Of a DNA stretch of 28,406 nucleotides, positions 1-25,399 are shown in pieces. The translations under genes were made by a program, and so were the position numbers. The first letter of the stretch is position 1. Every line of letters begins with the position of its first letter. The DNA is from a virus: the IMG/VR virus record IMGVR_UViG_3300030106_000056, positions 1 through 28,406 of that record; one strand, given 5' to 3'. The notes beneath the pieces are model-generated. The model was not told the origin of the DNA and ran no database searches. It saw only the letters and a list, made by a program, of their open reading frames with translations.

Positions 1-41
1 TCACACATAGCACGATGGCTAGGTAGGTTCTAAAATGAGAG

Positions 42-66
42 AGGGGGCTTCGCGGCCCCCTTTTTT
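42..66 (+). terminator. Rho-independent terminator, rightward
   Basis: A GC-rich hairpin has arms GGGGGC (43-48) and GCCCCC (55-60) around the loop TTCGCG. An A-T pair at 42/61 extends it, and six T residues follow (61-66). The T run is on the plus strand, so the textbook intrinsic terminator acts on rightward transcription entering from beyond the left edge. The minus-strand gene cluster also ends here, with its last stop codon at 69-71. On that strand the hairpin is followed only by TCTCTCATTTT, so it may terminate leftward transcripts less efficiently. Together these suggest a convergent-transcription boundary. Confidence 0.75.
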
Positions 67-68
67 AT

Positions 69-3000
69 TTATCTTTCATTAGAAACCCTACGTGCCTCTA
101 CGATTAACTCTCGCAATCCCTCTATGCTACCTAAATCTACATCAGGCAACCCTGAAGCGTCCCGTCTGGCTTGAACACGACTTAACGCTATAACTCTATC
201 CTCGCTAGGTAGCTTACGAAAGGCGTTAACAGCCATTACATAACCCGGATTAGATGAACCGCTAAATTGTGCTGATCTTAAAGACTCTCTAATGTTAGCA
301 AAATTATTCTTTACTAGATTTCTTTGTTCAAGAACCATCATCTTGTTAGAATAACGACCTTCCTTTTTTAGTCTAGCTTTAAGCATAGGCTCTCGCCCAG
401 CTAACATATTAGCCATGTCAGGTAAAAGTTCATTCACAAGTGCGGCCATAGTGTTGTCTATAACATCAACTCCAACTTTATAGGAGAAGTCATAGTCAAC
501 AAAGTTAAGGGATCGTAAATACTTTTCGTATGGTTTGTCACCTCTTTCAACATTAATACCAAGAGCAAGTTTCCATGTAGGTGCGAGTCGCTCCCTTTCT
601 CCCGACATTGGCTGAACTCTGCGAGGGGCATCAGCTTCTTTATTCGGACTTACGTAGCCACGCGCATTAAGTGGTATCATAAAGCCCTTTACAAAGGCAC
701 TGCCAGAAGATAGATCAGGCTCACCCTCATAGGTTTTGTAATAATTATCTCTCATGCCCATAGCCCGTTCAGCATCAATAACCATTGAGTACGGCTGAAA
801 ATATCGGGTCACGGTATTTCCTACTAATTTACCAAATGCTTTCTTTGTTTCTTCAGTTTTTGCTGCATCATTGTTTTCTGCAAATAAGTTGGAGACATCC
901 GATGCTAGTTGTCCGAAAGATTGATTAGCGCGGAAGTTACTTCCTGTTAGTGCTTTAATACCGTATCCAAAATTTCTGCCTCTATCCATGAACATCCAGT
1001 TAGTTAGGTTTTCAAATCCATCGTCCATAGACTCCGCATATCCCTTACCTTGGCTTCTTGAGATTTTAAAGTCTTTATCAATTTGATTCCAAACTTCAGC
1101 TAGATAAAGACCCGGTGCAAGAGGGAATTGTGGATCAATGTTGGTCTGACTCCCATCAGGATTTGTAACATAATTATATCTTTCAGGCGACTCTTCGCTT
1201 CTCCTATAATAGTACAGTCCTAACAACGCACTCATGCCCACCATATTACGAGCAACTTTTTCAGCATCTTTTACCAGATTGCCCTTGCCCATTGCTATGC
1301 GCAAAGCAGGTATATAACCTCCGGCTACGTTTGAGCCTACATATTCCATAGCTTTAAACATAAAGCGTGGAAATGGAATCATAATAGTGCTACCGGGGAT
1401 GCCATTTAATATGCGAAGCATAGATTTAAATGGTGCAAACGTAGGAGGAGAAGCATACGTTTTATCTAAGGCACTCTCAACTGCATCTGTAGCTAGTTCA
1501 GCAAAAGATGGGGGCGTGTCATTGCCCCTAACTGGACGAAGTGTAGGTGAGTCATTAATAAGTTCTTTAATATTGCCGTCACGAATTATCTGTTCTAGAT
1601 TTACACCCCATTCTCTTTTTAAATTGCGACTCAAGTCAGATAAAAAGTATGCGTTACGAGATAAAAATTCTTGTCCACGGTTTGGCGTATTTAAAAAATC
1701 TACGAAATCTTCTATCGGATTAAATACGAAATCAGATATACCACCTTCGCCCTTACCTGTAGCACGTTGGGCTTCGATAATTTGATCTCTATAACGAGTC
1801 AGAAGATGTGCAAATTCTGGTTGTTCCAGAATAATTTTAGTCATATCATCTGCATATTCAGGATTGCTAAACATGAAAGAATATGTATTAAAGCTATCCC
1901 GATATATATTGTCTTTAGATATAGGATTAAAACGTCGGGCAGCGTTTACTGCTTCTTCTCTAGCTGCAGAAAATTCACCAGATTTTGTATGACGAGCCAT
2001 ACGAACCCCGCGAATAATTGCATCTTGCAGTACGTATGTCAACCCTTCAAGTGGTGCGCGTATTAAAGTTGATTCAAAGTTTCTAGCAGCGGTGGCAAAA
2101 GCAGATACCATTAGTCCACGACTTATGTTTTCTGCACGTCTGATATTCTGACCTGTTTTTTTCAGCCCCATTTCAAATGGTATTTTACCCGCCAGCCAAT
2201 CCATCAAACCCGGCGCACCGTCTAGATCATCTTGCGCTTTTTTTCCAGCAGACCTAACCCGCTTTGTCCTGCCCATAGCTGTTGCCATAGCAGCAAATTT
2301 TTGTAGTCCTTTACCAAACTTGGTGCCTGAACCTACAGTCATTAAAATATAATCGTCTAGGCTTAATCCAAACTCGTCTAGAATTTTACGTAATTCATCT
2401 GAAGCAATAAGGTTGCCCTTAACGCTTTCACGAAACAGTGTTTCAATTACATTTTTGCTGCCTTTAAACGCTTCTGGATTAAGTTCTTTTACTTTAGCAA
2501 TTGTTGCTACAACAGCGTTTAGCTTTTCCGATTGGAAAATAGGATTACGGAAACCGTTGGGTCCAATGCCAAGATCATAAGCAACATCATCGTCTAAGCC
2601 TAAATCTTCTACCTTTTGTATTCCTAGTGTCTTGGCTTTTTCAAAGTCAATATAAGTCTTACCAAATGCTTTTTTAGATATAGCACCTCTACCAAGTTCG
2701 TTAATATCTTCATAATTATGAATAATTTCTTCCATAATATCATCGTGTTTTGCAGCTTCTGCCGCAGCAGCTTTAGCTTTTGCTTTCCGAACATCTTCTG
2801 TGCGACCCTTTATGTCGGAAATACGACCCTCTCGTTCTATCCTTGCTCTTGCTTTTTCTGCAGCGGCAAGCATTTCAGCAGTTTGAACACGATCACCACC
2901 TTTAATTACCTTGACATCTCTACCAATACTTTGAAGTCCTTTTTCAACTAAACTTCCCTCTTCTATAGGACCACCTGCAAATGTCATTCTTTTAGTTGTA

Positions 3001-19815: not shown

Positions 19816-20919
19816 CTACGCCAAGCAGTATGCCGCAGTAGCGATTGCTTCAGGACGAAGAATCTTGCGACCATACAGGTGCATACCACGAACAATGTCA
19901 GCGAAGCTGTCAGGGTCACGGTAGGTTTCAGTCTTGTTAATCTGCTCTGCAGTTGCAACAGCAGAAGAATGACCAGCCACGATGATGCCCATGTTTGATG
20001 TATTCGGGCCACCTGTAGTGCCTGAGCCAGTACCCAGAGACGGCAGGTTGTTGGACGAATAAACTTGGAAACCGTGGAGGTTATTTACGACAAGACCATT
20101 CTGAAGACCAGAACCACCAAAGTCAGAGTTCAGAAGACGTGAGTCCTCATCCTTCAGAACTTCAATGAAAACAGGGTCAAGAACAAGCCAACGTCCTTGG
20201 GTATCAACATTTTGTTGGTCCATCAGACGTGACATACGTGCAATGATTTGCAGTGGGCTGGCAATACCGCCAGTTGATGCATGCATTGTCACAGTTGTTT
20301 GACCCGGCGCACGGGCTTTAATACCAATACAGTTATTGGCAGAGCCAGCACTTCCGTCTTCAGCAGTGAAGTCAGATGCGTCCAGTGACATGGAAGCCAG
20401 CAGTTCCGCACCTACAAGGTTGGCACCATCCGAAGCGGTGGTAACAGCCTTGCCACCATTAACAGTTGTGTTAACAGCATTAGCAGCGCCATGAATGGCA
20501 GACTGCTTAAAGCCTGACAGGTAGCCAAGAACGTCTTGGTCAAACTGGTCAGCGAGACGGTATGCAGCACGGTCACTTGCCAGAGATTGGAAGTTTACGT
20601 GGCTGTGCGCCTCTTCAATGTCGTCAACCTTAAACGCAAAGTAGTTAGCTTTGTCGATTGTCAGGCTGAAGTCTTCGTCGTCAAGGTCTTGCGGCGTGAT
20701 TGTTGTACCACGTGCGTACTCCTTAACAGTGATTTCGGGTTCCTTGATAATCTTAACGGAATCACCCATTTGTGCGATTTCACCAAAGTAGTCATTATTG
20801 GTGATTGCTTCAACAATAGATGCCTTGCGGAAAGCAAGTTGCACCTGTTTGCTGTAAATTACGGGCGAAAAATTACCGTTAGGAAGATTACCATGCCCGG
20901 CTGCGGTAGTAAAAGCCAT
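19816..20919 (-). CDS. Major capsid (coat) protein, P22/HK97-fold type, 367 aa
   Basis: The N-terminal pattern of an early LAFRKASIVEAITNNDYFGE, then GDSVKIIKEPEITVKEYARG and an acidic DEDFSLTIDKANYFAFKVDD is that of phage coat proteins with the HK97 fold, P22-like branch. Helical IADQ-type sequence and a strand-rich middle follow, ending with the ADIVRGMHLYGRKILRPEA region, typical of the C-terminal axial domain. The length is somewhat shorter than P22 coat (430). It follows the scaffold gene and has its own promoter and a leader of about 190 nt. AGGAG stands 8 nt before the ATG. High expression is expected. Confidence 0.9.
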   Translation of the reverse strand: MAFTTAAGHGNLPNGNFSPVIYSKQVQLAFRKASIVEAITNNDYFGEIAQMGDSVKIIKEPEITVKEYARGTTITPQDLDDEDFSLTIDKANYFAFKVDDIEEAHSHVNFQSLASDRAAYRLADQFDQDVLGYLSGFKQSAIHGAANAVNTTVNGGKAVTTASDGANLVGAELLASMSLDASDFTAEDGSAGSANNCIGIKARAPGQTTVTMHASTGGIASPLQIIARMSRLMDQQNVDTQGRWLVLDPVFIEVLKDEDSRLLNSDFGGSGLQNGLVVNNLHGFQVYSSNNLPSLGTGSGTTGGPNTSNMGIIVAGHSSAVATAEQINKTETYRDPDSFADIVRGMHLYGRKILRPEAIATAAYCLA

Positions 20920-21113
20920 GATGTTATCTCCTATTTAGGCATTTAACAGATGCAAACTTACCAGACTAATCAGAGGCTGATTCACTATGGGTGCGTATTC
21001 CAGTTAGGTGGCCGCCCAACTATTCAACGGGCCATGCTCGTCAGGTAATCCATAAGACTGTATTGTTTGCGGATTGGTGCAAGCAGGTAGCGAACCCACT
21101 TACACCTTTGTTG
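20920..21113 (-). promoter_or_regulatory. Structured 5' leader of the coat-protein mRNA
   Basis: This is the only sizeable non-coding stretch (20920-21154) and no gene is seen in it. The predicted transcript starts near 21113. From there it holds a perfect 13-bp hairpin (21106-21076), a weak AATCC/GGATT pairing (21075-21047), a GCCCG/TGGGC hairpin around 21035-21013, and a 6-bp AATCAG-CCT-CTGATT triloop hairpin (20982-20968). The ribosome site AGGAG follows, 8 nt before the ATG. Such a leader could stabilise the mRNA or tune translation. Confidence 0.6.
21076..21106 (-). promoter_or_regulatory. Perfect 13-bp hairpin at the 5' end of the coat mRNA
   Basis: On the minus strand the arms GGTGTAAGTGGGT and ACCTGCTTGCACC pair at all 13 positions (three of them G-U) around the loop TCGCT. 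The G-U pairs form only in the minus-strand RNA; the plus-strand RNA would have mismatches, which supports function in the coat transcript. It begins about 7 nt from the predicted start of transcription. Confidence 0.75.
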
Positions 21114-21119
21114 TGTATA

Positions 21120-21147
21120 GTTATACTTACAAATAACTATTTGTCAA
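21120..21147 (-). promoter_or_regulatory. Sigma-70-type promoter for the coat-protein gene
   Basis: The minus strand reads TTGACA (21147-21142, full consensus -35), a 16-nt spacer, then TATAAC (21125-21120, 5 of 6 -10). It sits immediately after the stop of the scaffold gene, in the only sizeable gap of the window. It is directed at the major capsid gene and the genes downstream. Confidence 0.85.
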
Positions 21148-22096: not shown

Positions 22097-25000
22097 CTAT
22101 TTTTTAGAAGCTAGTCCACCTCGCTTCATCTTTTTGACCTTGGGTTTTTTCTTTGCTGCTAGACCACCGTCCGCAAAAAATCCTCTACCTGTTTCGTATC
22201 CACCTCTAGCATCATCGCCTGTAGTTCTAGAGCCGCCACCAGAGCCAATGCTGTAACTAGTTTGATTTTCAAACGGTGACTCGTTATCGTCTCTTTGTTG
22301 TGCTTGCGAAAGAGTAGGCGCACTTTGTCTTGCAGCATCTAATTCAGCTTGAGAAACAGACACATCAGAAAATGCTTCATCATCATACCCTCTCGCAATG
22401 TTTGCAGCTTCTTCATCCTGCGCCTGTCTTATCGCCTGATCGATAATTGACCCTTCCGTAAAGCCAGACCTACTCATACCATCTCTTTCACCAAAAGCCC
22501 GTCTTCGTTCTTTACTGCCGACTTCCATGTCCTGCGCTTTAGCAATCTTATTCTGAAGTGTACCTTCTTTCTGGGCTTCTCGTTTTGCTTCCTCACCCAT
22601 TGCTTCGGCTCTTCTTGCAGCAAAATCACGTTGACGTGTTTCTAAAGGATTTTTTAATCTGTCTAATATAAAATTGGATTCGTCTCCTTTAAATCCCGCC
22701 TCTTTCATTCTATTGTACACTTCCGCGCTTACAGTAACAGTTTCACCATCTAAGAAAAATGTAGCGTTAACATCTTCTGGTATACCCTTACCTGTAGCAA
22801 GGGCGGCAGCTAGTCCCAGACCTCCACCATCAAAAGACACACCAACTATTGTAGCGCCATTTTTAAAGCCTTTGCCATCGCTAACTCCACCAAGTGCTAT
22901 ACGACCTCCACCGGGGCCGTACCTAGCTTCTTCTTCTTCGCGCCGACGTTCAGAATCTTGATCTGAAGAATACTTATCTCTTACCGATGTGGTTCCTACT
23001 GTAGTAGGTGTCGTTGTCACTTCTTCCGTAGCCGTTGCTGCAGGGTCAACCCAACTATAGCCTTCAGGCAATACCTCACCCGGAAGCAACTCTCCTTTAC
23101 TGCCTTTCTTAATACGCAGTTGAATTTCTTGACCTGCTTCATTGCGGAAGGTAGCAAACTCAAAATCTACCTCTGGAACACCCGGTCCAGTGATCTGCCC
23201 AAAGGTAGGCAAAGGTGTTGGCACTTGCTGTGTAGGTACATATGCCTGTGCTGGGCGGGGTACAGGCTGCACAAATTGTTGTGACGCAGCTTGAACAGGT
23301 TGTGTCGCATATGAGGTAGTAGGCATAGGTGCAGCTTGATATCCTGCAATACCCATCTGCTGATCCTGCTGTGTACCCGGAACGAAACCACCTACATTAT
23401 ACTCTGGTTCGTCGTCCATGTCAAGATCATTTATGTCAAAAGGCAAATCATCTGGCATCGTAGCTTCTTCACTGTTGCCCATCTGCCCCATTGCTTCCAT
23501 CATCTTGAGGCCCATCTTAGCCTCTTGGCGCATCATCATTAGCTTTTCAAGACCAATATAACGAACTACGTCAGCCGGGAATACAAACTCGCCTTCACTA
23601 AGTTGTGCCGGGATATCGTCGCGCACTTCTTCTTGTGTAGAGCCGGGTGGCACTTCATTGCCTGATACCGGGTCATTAGTGCCGCCGTCCTGCTCCAGAC
23701 CACCGTCTGCGAACATATCCATTTGTCTGTCCATAGGTACTACTCCACCTTTTTTCATTTTATATCGAACTTCACTTGGAAGTGGTGTTCCATCAGATGC
23801 AGATAGCGGATCAGGTGCCTCTGCCTTTTTCATATAAGTTACACCTTTTGCGTATACTCTGTCACCTACAACAGTAGCTACTTCCGCAGACTGTACGGCT
23901 TGTCCAGTAGACATATCTACAAATAGATGGCCACTCATAGGATTAAAACCAATCTCTACTACATCGTCATCCATTTCATCTAGTATATTCCTACTATTAT
24001 TAAGCTGTCCATCAACCGACATAGCAGGAAATTTATTTTTTGCTTCAGGAACGTCTACACCTTTTATTTTAGCCGCAATACCTTGTCTACCTTTTTGGTT
24101 TACATTGAATGTAACATTTTCTACTGTGGCAAAAGGACGATATGACAAAGCCTTACCGTTGTAATTTTTTTGATGAAGAGTTTGAAGTTTATCCAAACCT
24201 CTAGGCATATTAGGAATAGTTGAGTTAAGATTGAGACGAATACCAACTTGTGTTCCATCAGGAACTTCTGCTCCAATTAATTTATTGGCTGCTTTAGTAC
24301 CCGCATTTGCTGCTGAAGCATTCTCAACCATAGAGTTTACGGTGCTTGCATCATATTTGCGTAGCAAAGCACCATCTTTCATAGCAGGGTTTATTCCAAT
24401 TTCTAAAGCGTCCGCCTCTTTAAGTGAAACACTAGCACTGCGTCCTGCAATGGAAGACGTATCAATCTTGTCCATATGCTCTGGAAAGACCATGATTTGT
24501 TTGGAGCGGTCTTTGAAGTCAGCAAACAGAACAGAGTCATAGCCTTGTTCTTTTAGTTCTGGTATCTTGTCTTTAAGTTCTTTGCGTTGTTTTTCTGTGC
24601 GCACAACATACGGCTTTTGTAATTCAGATAAATCAAATCTTCCTACTTGTTGTCCTGCTGCAATATCTTCACCATATATATTCTTACCCTTCATAATGCT
24701 ACCAACAGTAACATAATCACCACCGGGTGTTACGTGGACAGATACATCTTTGCCCAGACCACCGACAAACTGTTTCTGCACATTCGGTGCTGTCAAAATT
24801 TTACGTGCAGCGTCTCCTTTGATAGTCTTTTCAAAGTTCCTGCCAATAGAGCGTAGACTAGCATATTCAGATGCAATCTCCGGGTCAAGGGTAAAGTAAA
24901 ATCCTTCTCCTAAAAATTGGTCATTTTTACGAGCAAAGTTTATATCAAAAAAAGGTTCATCTCTTGATCTTGCTTTCGCAGTACCGTGATAGCCAAAAAT

Positions 25001-25399
25001 ACGATTTTCATCTGGTTGTGCCGGAAGTGAAGCGCGTTCTGTTTCGGGTAGTTTATCAAATAACTTACGCAATTCGGATTTAGTAGATCGCAACCCTTTA
25101 GCTGCTGCATCACCAAATACAGGCATTACTCCCAGAAGACCAGCCCCTGCTTCAATTGTAGCACCTAAATAATCTTTTTCATCCAAAGCATCAGAGGTGC
25201 GCTTAATAGCAATGGCTTCACCTACACCGGGAGTGGACTCTGCTAAGAACATTGGACCTTCTTCTTTTACAGTCTTACCAATAGACTTTAAATCAGTCAT
25301 TTGTTCTGCAAGCATTTCTTTTTTGGTGCGAGTATCTACACCAGAGTCAATATCTTTAGCCTCTTGGATGGCTTGCATCTGTGCTTCAGTCGCTACCAA
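22097..25399 (-). CDS. Polyvalent virion protein with ADP-ribosyltransferase-like domain, 1100 aa
   Basis: Residues ~134-320 resemble the ART domain of phage polyvalent proteins: FGYHGT (135-140, candidate NAD-binding His138), GEGFYFT (164-170, candidate Tyr168) and GYDSVLF with KQIMVF (286-305, Gln301 at the usual third catalytic position instead of Glu). It would transfer ADP-ribose from NAD, if active. An apolar Gly/Ala region (about 58-101) precedes it. A small module with HLFVDMSTGQAV (491-502) follows. Next is a conserved-looking block with EVRDDIPAQLSEGEFVFPAD (591-610), then Pro/Gln-rich and charged regions, ending in MKRGGLASKK. Four GG motifs occur. The start is TTG with AAGGG 9 nt before it; the first in-frame ATG is at 25378. 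Likely packaged or ejected, inferred from its place between portal and scaffold. Confidence 0.8.
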   Translation of the reverse strand: MVATEAQMQAIQEAKDIDSGVDTRTKKEMLAEQMTDLKSIGKTVKEEGPMFLAESTPGVGEAIAIKRTSDALDEKDYLGATIEAGAGLLGVMPVFGDAAAKGLRSTKSELRKLFDKLPETERASLPAQPDENRIFGYHGTAKARSRDEPFFDINFARKNDQFLGEGFYFTLDPEIASEYASLRSIGRNFEKTIKGDAARKILTAPNVQKQFVGGLGKDVSVHVTPGGDYVTVGSIMKGKNIYGEDIAAGQQVGRFDLSELQKPYVVRTEKQRKELKDKIPELKEQGYDSVLFADFKDRSKQIMVFPEHMDKIDTSSIAGRSASVSLKEADALEIGINPAMKDGALLRKYDASTVNSMVENASAANAGTKAANKLIGAEVPDGTQVGIRLNLNSTIPNMPRGLDKLQTLHQKNYNGKALSYRPFATVENVTFNVNQKGRQGIAAKIKGVDVPEAKNKFPAMSVDGQLNNSRNILDEMDDDVVEIGFNPMSGHLFVDMSTGQAVQSAEVATVVGDRVYAKGVTYMKKAEAPDPLSASDGTPLPSEVRYKMKKGGVVPMDRQMDMFADGGLEQDGGTNDPVSGNEVPPGSTQEEVRDDIPAQLSEGEFVFPADVVRYIGLEKLMMMRQEAKMGLKMMEAMGQMGNSEEATMPDDLPFDINDLDMDDEPEYNVGGFVPGTQQDQQMGIAGYQAAPMPTTSYATQPVQAASQQFVQPVPRPAQAYVPTQQVPTPLPTFGQITGPGVPEVDFEFATFRNEAGQEIQLRIKKGSKGELLPGEVLPEGYSWVDPAATATEEVTTTPTTVGTTSVRDKYSSDQDSERRREEEEARYGPGGGRIALGGVSDGKGFKNGATIVGVSFDGGGLGLAAALATGKGIPEDVNATFFLDGETVTVSAEVYNRMKEAGFKGDESNFILDRLKNPLETRQRDFAARRAEAMGEEAKREAQKEGTLQNKIAKAQDMEVGSKERRRAFGERDGMSRSGFTEGSIIDQAIRQAQDEEAANIARGYDDEAFSDVSVSQAELDAARQSAPTLSQAQQRDDNESPFENQTSYSIGSGGGSRTTGDDARGGYETGRGFFADGGLAAKKKPKVKKMKRGGLASKK
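24440..25000 (-). other. ADP-ribosyltransferase-like (ART-PolyVal type) domain
   Basis: This segment encodes residues ~134-320 of the 1100-aa protein. The order of motifs matches the H-Y-[EQ] ART group: HGT on the first strand, G-x-G-x-YFT then a helix with A-x-x-YA (176-180), then GYDSV and a final strand QIMVF followed by P-E-H. The third position appears to be Gln, not Glu, so activity is uncertain. Confidence 0.65.

Follow-up and report, generated by a model that had tools for sequence, protein, structure and literature searches.

The ompA and T7 gene 10 leaders are simple stem-loops that stabilise their messengers at the 5' end, gene 10 being a capsid gene. GOLLD and ROOL are ornate RNAs of another kind, large, structured and self-associating; they are several times larger than the leader described here and are not coat leaders. 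Among phage leaders, that of T4 gene 32 is, in the accessible part of PMC3014915, an autogenous precedent bound by the gene's own product. For phage HK022, the accessible part of PMC9378689 describes put RNA as about 70 nt long with two stem-loops, and putL as lying just downstream of its promoter and acting over at least 10 kb. According to PMC9038755 (accessible part), phages of the HMO-2011 type dominate in the ocean and occur widely there. No description of the coat-leader RNA reported below was found in the openly accessible literature, the accessible text of these sources and of PMC6256558 and PMC12753301 included.

The window, the whole stretch of DNA that we analysed, comprises a virus record of 28.4 kb; among named phages, Puniceispirillum phage HMO-2011 is closest to it at the DNA level. 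Its coat (major capsid) gene lies on the minus strand at 19816..20919 (phrog_267 major head protein, E 6.1e-66), is 78% identical to the HMO-2011 coat and is preceded by a Shine-Dalgarno sequence, AGGAG, at 20928..20932 (minus). It is the first of a close-packed run of at least 18 genes that reaches the window end over about 20.8 kb with few gaps. The initial annotation had drawn attention to a promoter and a hairpin ahead of this gene. Comparison of related sequences indicates that this hairpin, called P1 below, forms just the 5' portion of a structured leader RNA of about 150-190 nt ahead of the coat gene in HMO-2011-type phages; the annotation had missed this far longer conserved RNA, of which the hairpin makes up little.

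The promoter is of the sigma-70 type and occupies 21120..21147 on the minus strand, with TTGACA at 21147-21142, a 16-nt spacer and TATAAC at 21125-21120, as had been proposed. It recurs in 118 module-bearing leaders (the module is described below), where the -10 box reads TATAAC in 96, TAAAAC in 18 and TATAAT in 4 and the spacer is 16 nt in 105. The -10 box ending in C (TATAAC, 96/118 leaders) is a conserved departure from TATAAT. Of 80 coat loci, 74 have the promoter in the corresponding position by one pattern; this first pattern matched 75 of the 80, the match in L037 being at a spurious place. Five of the remaining six loci are truncated, and L037 has a standard promoter by a second pattern. 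The coat promoter had also been called the best in the window, which holds for the non-coding DNA and fails for the window as a whole: a 12/12 match, TTGACA-17-TATAAT, lies on the same strand at 23424-23396, within a coding frame. Being coding, it was ruled out as a competitor of the coat promoter; like strings at nearly equal distance in a few relatives resemble conserved acidic codons. Transcription probably starts at about 21113, a guess that places it 7 nt downstream of the -10 box, within a short unpaired 5' stretch (21107..21119, minus) that was delimited by position alone.

P1 (21076..21106, minus), supported by a stem search and by covariation, has 13 pairs and a 5-nt loop. Thirteen nt separate it from the -10 box and about 6 nt from the guessed start site, in agreement with the claim that the hairpin lies almost against the predicted 5' end. 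Three of the 13 pairs are G-U pairs which, as the annotation had it, form only in the RNA of the minus strand. P1 is the sole perfect stem of at least 13 pairs on the minus strand of the window. When this strand was shuffled with its dinucleotides preserved, 38 of 100 shuffles held at least one such stem (mean 0.62 per shuffle), and a bare 13-pair stem is thus not rare by chance; it is because of its position and its covariation, not of its length, that P1 stands above chance.

The arrangement of promoter and 5'-proximal stem recurs, the first paired base falling 0-17 nt after the -10 box in all 118 leaders with a promoter. In the same 118 leaders, the first 60 nt fold more stably than their shuffled counterparts, with a median z of -2.75 (88 below -2), and the whole leader has a median z of -2.28 (72 below -2). 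Covariation of P1 among 23 sequences of the window clade scores 0.523, against 0.236 for shuffles (sd 0.022) and at most 0.105 for slid registers. In this alignment 9 pairs were counted and 96.9% of the cells are paired; the count of pair types does not exceed that of the shuffles. Compensatory changes in related phages, on which the proposal of a stabilising hairpin had been made to depend, are present, 7 of the 9 counted pairs having changed on both sides. G-U cells outnumber A-C cells, 18 to 2 in P1 and 118 to 43 in alignment A4 of domain 2 (49 sequences), as expected for RNA of the minus strand.

Downstream of P1 lies domain 2, all on the minus strand and delimited by covariation. It is closed by an outer helix, P0 (GCAAAC, 21065..21070, with GTTTGC, 20952..20957), followed by P2 (21049..21052 with 20971..20974), whose register shifts by one base in other clades. 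Then comes an outer CC/AC internal loop, whose long strand (21044..21048) reads UUAC followed by the C that closes P3, and whose short strand is GCC (20975..20977); the shared module described below also marks this loop and P3. The 5' strand of P3 (21030..21044) runs from the C of a first ACC to a first GCC, and its 3' partner (20977..20992) from a second ACC to the G of a second GCC. P4 (CGT, 21027..21029, with ACG, 20994..20996), also recovered by an unguided scan, leads to a variable hairpin, P5 (21002..21021), with the loop CGGCCA. The coat ribosome-binding site lies outside the conserved fold and is not buried in it, so that a simple on-off switch is not evident.

The domain-2 set A4 was chosen by motif pattern (49/49 picked names matched) and not by helix score. 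In these 49 leaders domain 2 scores 0.419 against 0.170 for shuffles (sd 0.009) and at most 0.063 for slid registers, with 28 pairs, 88.4% paired, of which 20 have changed on both sides. RNAalifold gave 25 pairs, 19 with a compensatory change, for the 23 leaders of the window clade, and 28 pairs, 18 with such a change, for 16 leaders of a distant class; P0 was missed by RNAalifold alone. In an unguided scan of all column pairs, P4, P5, P3 and the 55-113 pair were among the top values, which is supportive without being clean, because column pairs that do not base-pair appear below the top dozen. P2, with at least 4 pairs in 60% of sequences versus 31% with partners shuffled, is moderately supported by the sequences. 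Leaders whose loop carries GATC, GTAC or GCGC still have the same GCC strand, and for this reason an intramolecular pseudoknot of TGGCC with the GGCCA loop was abandoned. A conserved upstream reading frame was also rejected, the ATG at window 21053 being ACG in many relatives. The fold of the coat leader is well supported, and its mechanism is inferred.

In the loci of the first scan, the promoter and a stem are followed by a region rich in fixed words (TACC, GCC, ACC, GCC). Across clades, the centre of the leaders has the order 5'-ACC-helix-GCC-hairpin-ACC-helix-GCC-3'. Each strand of the helix opens with ACC and closes with GCC, which puts one and the same CC/AC internal loop on either side of the helix. 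We detected this module (helix score of at least 4) in 168 of 197 distinct upstream regions, representatives drawn from 405 by a k-mer filter, versus 32 of 1970 dinucleotide shuffles. Among the 29 that failed the test, several Rhizobium and CRP-738-like regions show altered forms by eye, and others show nothing. The helix varies freely in sequence, its second pair from the outside being U-A in 118, C-G in 28 and A-U in 20 (n=169). Covariation of the module in alignment A6 (104 sequences thinned from 155, with the misparsed rows L116, L123, L129 and L156 kept in the count) is 0.547 against 0.190 for shuffles and at most 0.092 for slid registers; A6 was picked by helix score and so leans towards P3, and two of five measures (pairs changed and pair types) do not exceed shuffles. 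A third CC/AC loop lies within P1 in 60 of the 118 leaders, against 97 of 2360 shuffles; in the window P1 is a plain stem lacking this loop. From this count, as from those of promoter geometry and stability, 50 of the 168 module-bearing leaders were left out for want of a usable promoter match or of a leader of at least 35 nt.

No match to Rfam 15 was found at curated thresholds in the window or in 11 relatives. A relaxed search gave an S15 leader at 11.2 bits where 39.5 are needed, its other sub-threshold matches lying outside the leader. ARAGORN found no tRNA or tmRNA gene in the window, and that identity was discarded. Leader RNAs are a known kind, and one with repeated CC/AC loops appears to be an undescribed family.

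The relatives came from coat-protein scans (80 loci in the first, 80 in each of four further scans), and 16 named phage regions were examined besides HMO-2011. On 25 whole records, model R1 gave a match at E up to 0.1 in 15, the best one always directly upstream of the coat gene on the same strand; two records carried extra weak rows, one in G005 (E 0.017) and one in G002 that repeats the upstream match in antisense. Applied in two batches to 200 of the 416 coat loci, R1 matched (E up to 1) 65 of 100 sources in the first and 63 of 100 in the second, where five extra rows were antisense echoes of the same places. On the whole records it gave no match in phiM6, RHph_I3_11, CRP-738 and the IMG/VR records G004, G006 and G007; phiM6 and RHph_I3_11 show the module by eye. 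R1 likewise misses the class 3 leaders (L003, L017-L019 and kin), for which the support comes from a separate alignment and from the module test. The module extends to leaders of Roseobacter phages and soil Rhizobium phages, whose coats are about 50-66% identical. Measured by open frames, the gap before the coat gene has a median of 243 nt (363 loci).

The fold has been kept by evolution despite changes in its letters, so the leader probably controls expression of the capsid gene or of the genes behind it. With its own promoter, on the same strand, in one copy, at a fixed place and with no terminator seen between it and the coat start, a cis-acting leader is the economical account. We lean, with some reserve, towards the following scheme, in which P1 belongs to a cis-acting structured coat leader that combines 5' protection with CC/AC loops serving as a docking site. 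The dedicated promoter would give a transcript starting at about 21113 with a stem close to its 5' end, and P1 would keep this end away from 5'-end-dependent decay. Domain 2, with its outer helix, its internal helix between two facing CC/AC loops and its variable apical hairpin, leaves the ribosome-binding site outside, and the repeated loops would be the docking site for a protein, which may come from the phage (coat or scaffold) or from the host (RNA polymerase, for example). Once docked, this protein would adjust the stability, translation or transcription of the coat message and of the long series of structural genes that follow. A more specific formulation, a modular class of RNAs with repeated CC/AC loops acting in cis on RNA polymerase or on the capsid protein, is offered quite tentatively.

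Self-complementary apical loops may, as a further twist, mediate dimerisation. Among P5 loops of even size (n=116), 75 have a palindromic centre, against 14% after shuffling; 60 of these 75 are GGCC, and GGCA or GGCG, which are not palindromic, occur in 21 of the 116. Like GOLLD and ROOL, the coat leader could in principle also self-associate through such loops. If the reading as a modular RNA class is true, an RNA of a new class would set the output of the capsid operon in a phage group that ranks among the most abundant of the ocean. The leader of HMO-2011-type phages gives a handle on the control of capsid synthesis in phages that are hard to grow, and its fixed RNA motif is a bait for finding the partner.

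The chief rivals of this scheme are autogenous control and an action on polymerase like that of put. By analogy with T4 gene 32, the coat or scaffold protein may bind the symmetric ACC-helix-GCC pair and shut off or pace coat synthesis, which we regard as possible but short of probable. The constant position of the leader ahead of the coat gene speaks for it, and a two-fold related pair of loops would suit a dimeric protein. In the accessible part of PMC3014915, the T4 leader is likewise a structured element upstream of a ribosome-binding site in a phage messenger, but it consists of a pseudoknot and an unstructured stretch before a different gene, with no homology shown. Against such a control stand the ribosome-binding site outside the fold and coat homologues that do without the leader: on whole records R1 gave no match in the pelagiphages HTVC033P, HTVC103P and HTVC115P, nor in Aeromonas phage MQM1, where the annotated gap before the coat gene is 31-58 nt and 17 nt, respectively. 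A coat of this fold therefore does not require the leader. The three pelagiphages, which are of the HMO-2011 type (L095, L096 and L094, respectively), have lost the leader or never had it.

The initial annotation had suggested that the hairpin stabilises capsid mRNA. Taken strictly, P1 would then be a simple clamp against RNase E and pyrophosphohydrolase, and the rest of the leader passive, which seems unlikely to us. The placement of the stem next to the -10 box, the stability of the 5' region and the compensatory changes all fit a clamp, and the ompA and T7 gene 10 leaders are precedents: their stems too lie close to the 5' end (a predicted end here, the stem lying at a similar distance from the -10 box in relatives), before a capsid gene in the case of gene 10. 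Those leaders are simple stem-loops, however, whereas the coat leader continues into a domain of several covarying helices whose internal loops are fixed. Conservation and covariation are at least as strong in domain 2 as in P1; the large fixed-sequence internal loop within P1 of 60 of the 118 leaders is not needed for a clamp; and the Rhizobium-phage leaders keep the module with neither P1 nor promoter evident by eye. The mRNA-stability idea is therefore compatible with the fold but too narrow, because it leaves the conserved CC/AC module downstream of the hairpin unexplained.

Since the coat gene heads some 20.8 kb of close-packed genes, an effect on polymerase is worth considering, in which the RNA would load in cis onto RNA polymerase and keep it going through the long late operon; we hold this to be rather improbable. 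As in HK022, for which the accessible part of PMC9378689 reports the position of putL, its two stem-loops and its long-range action, a promoter-proximal phage RNA of two domains with internal loops heads a long operon. But put serves lambdoid early operons, and the coat leader, at about 150-190 nt, has a nested domain ahead of a coat gene and departs from the size and two-stem-loop layout of put; moreover, it has no Rfam match, and no strong terminators were seen right after the coat gene. A separate small RNA, cut from the leader and acting in trans, would account for a compact conserved fold with its own promoter; it is very unlikely given that no terminator was seen before the coat start and that whole-record searches did not show the element away from the coat gene, apart from the weak G005 match. 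A DNA-level signal or a chance inverted repeat, for which one 13-bp stem per strand would not be unusual, is hardly credible in view of the covariation with its G-U excess and of slid registers at background.

Other observations concern the coat loci and the window. The coat leader of phage ctYwJ313 (MW202701.1) contains an endonuclease VII / HNH-like gene (phrog_1035, L085:515-1084) in the interval from the promoter to domain 2; the RNA match, at 1040-1172, overlaps the end of this gene. The coat match at L393:1201-2487 exceeds that of the query in length by about 237 nt, which suggests that this coat gene carries an insertion. A genome scan for prophages gave 7 loci, all on metagenome-assembled or uncultured-isolate contigs; these coat relatives (L419-L425), which were set aside, are listed under Euryarchaeota, Bacteroidetes, Blastopirellula and others and resemble phage contigs wrongly placed by metagenome binning. 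In the window itself, a perfect stem of up to 17 pairs lies near the start (33-70, plus strand), and a 1100-aa frame (22097-25399, minus strand), between the portal and scaffold positions, has a weak, below-cut-off match to the ADP-ribosyltransferase domain of polyvalent proteins.
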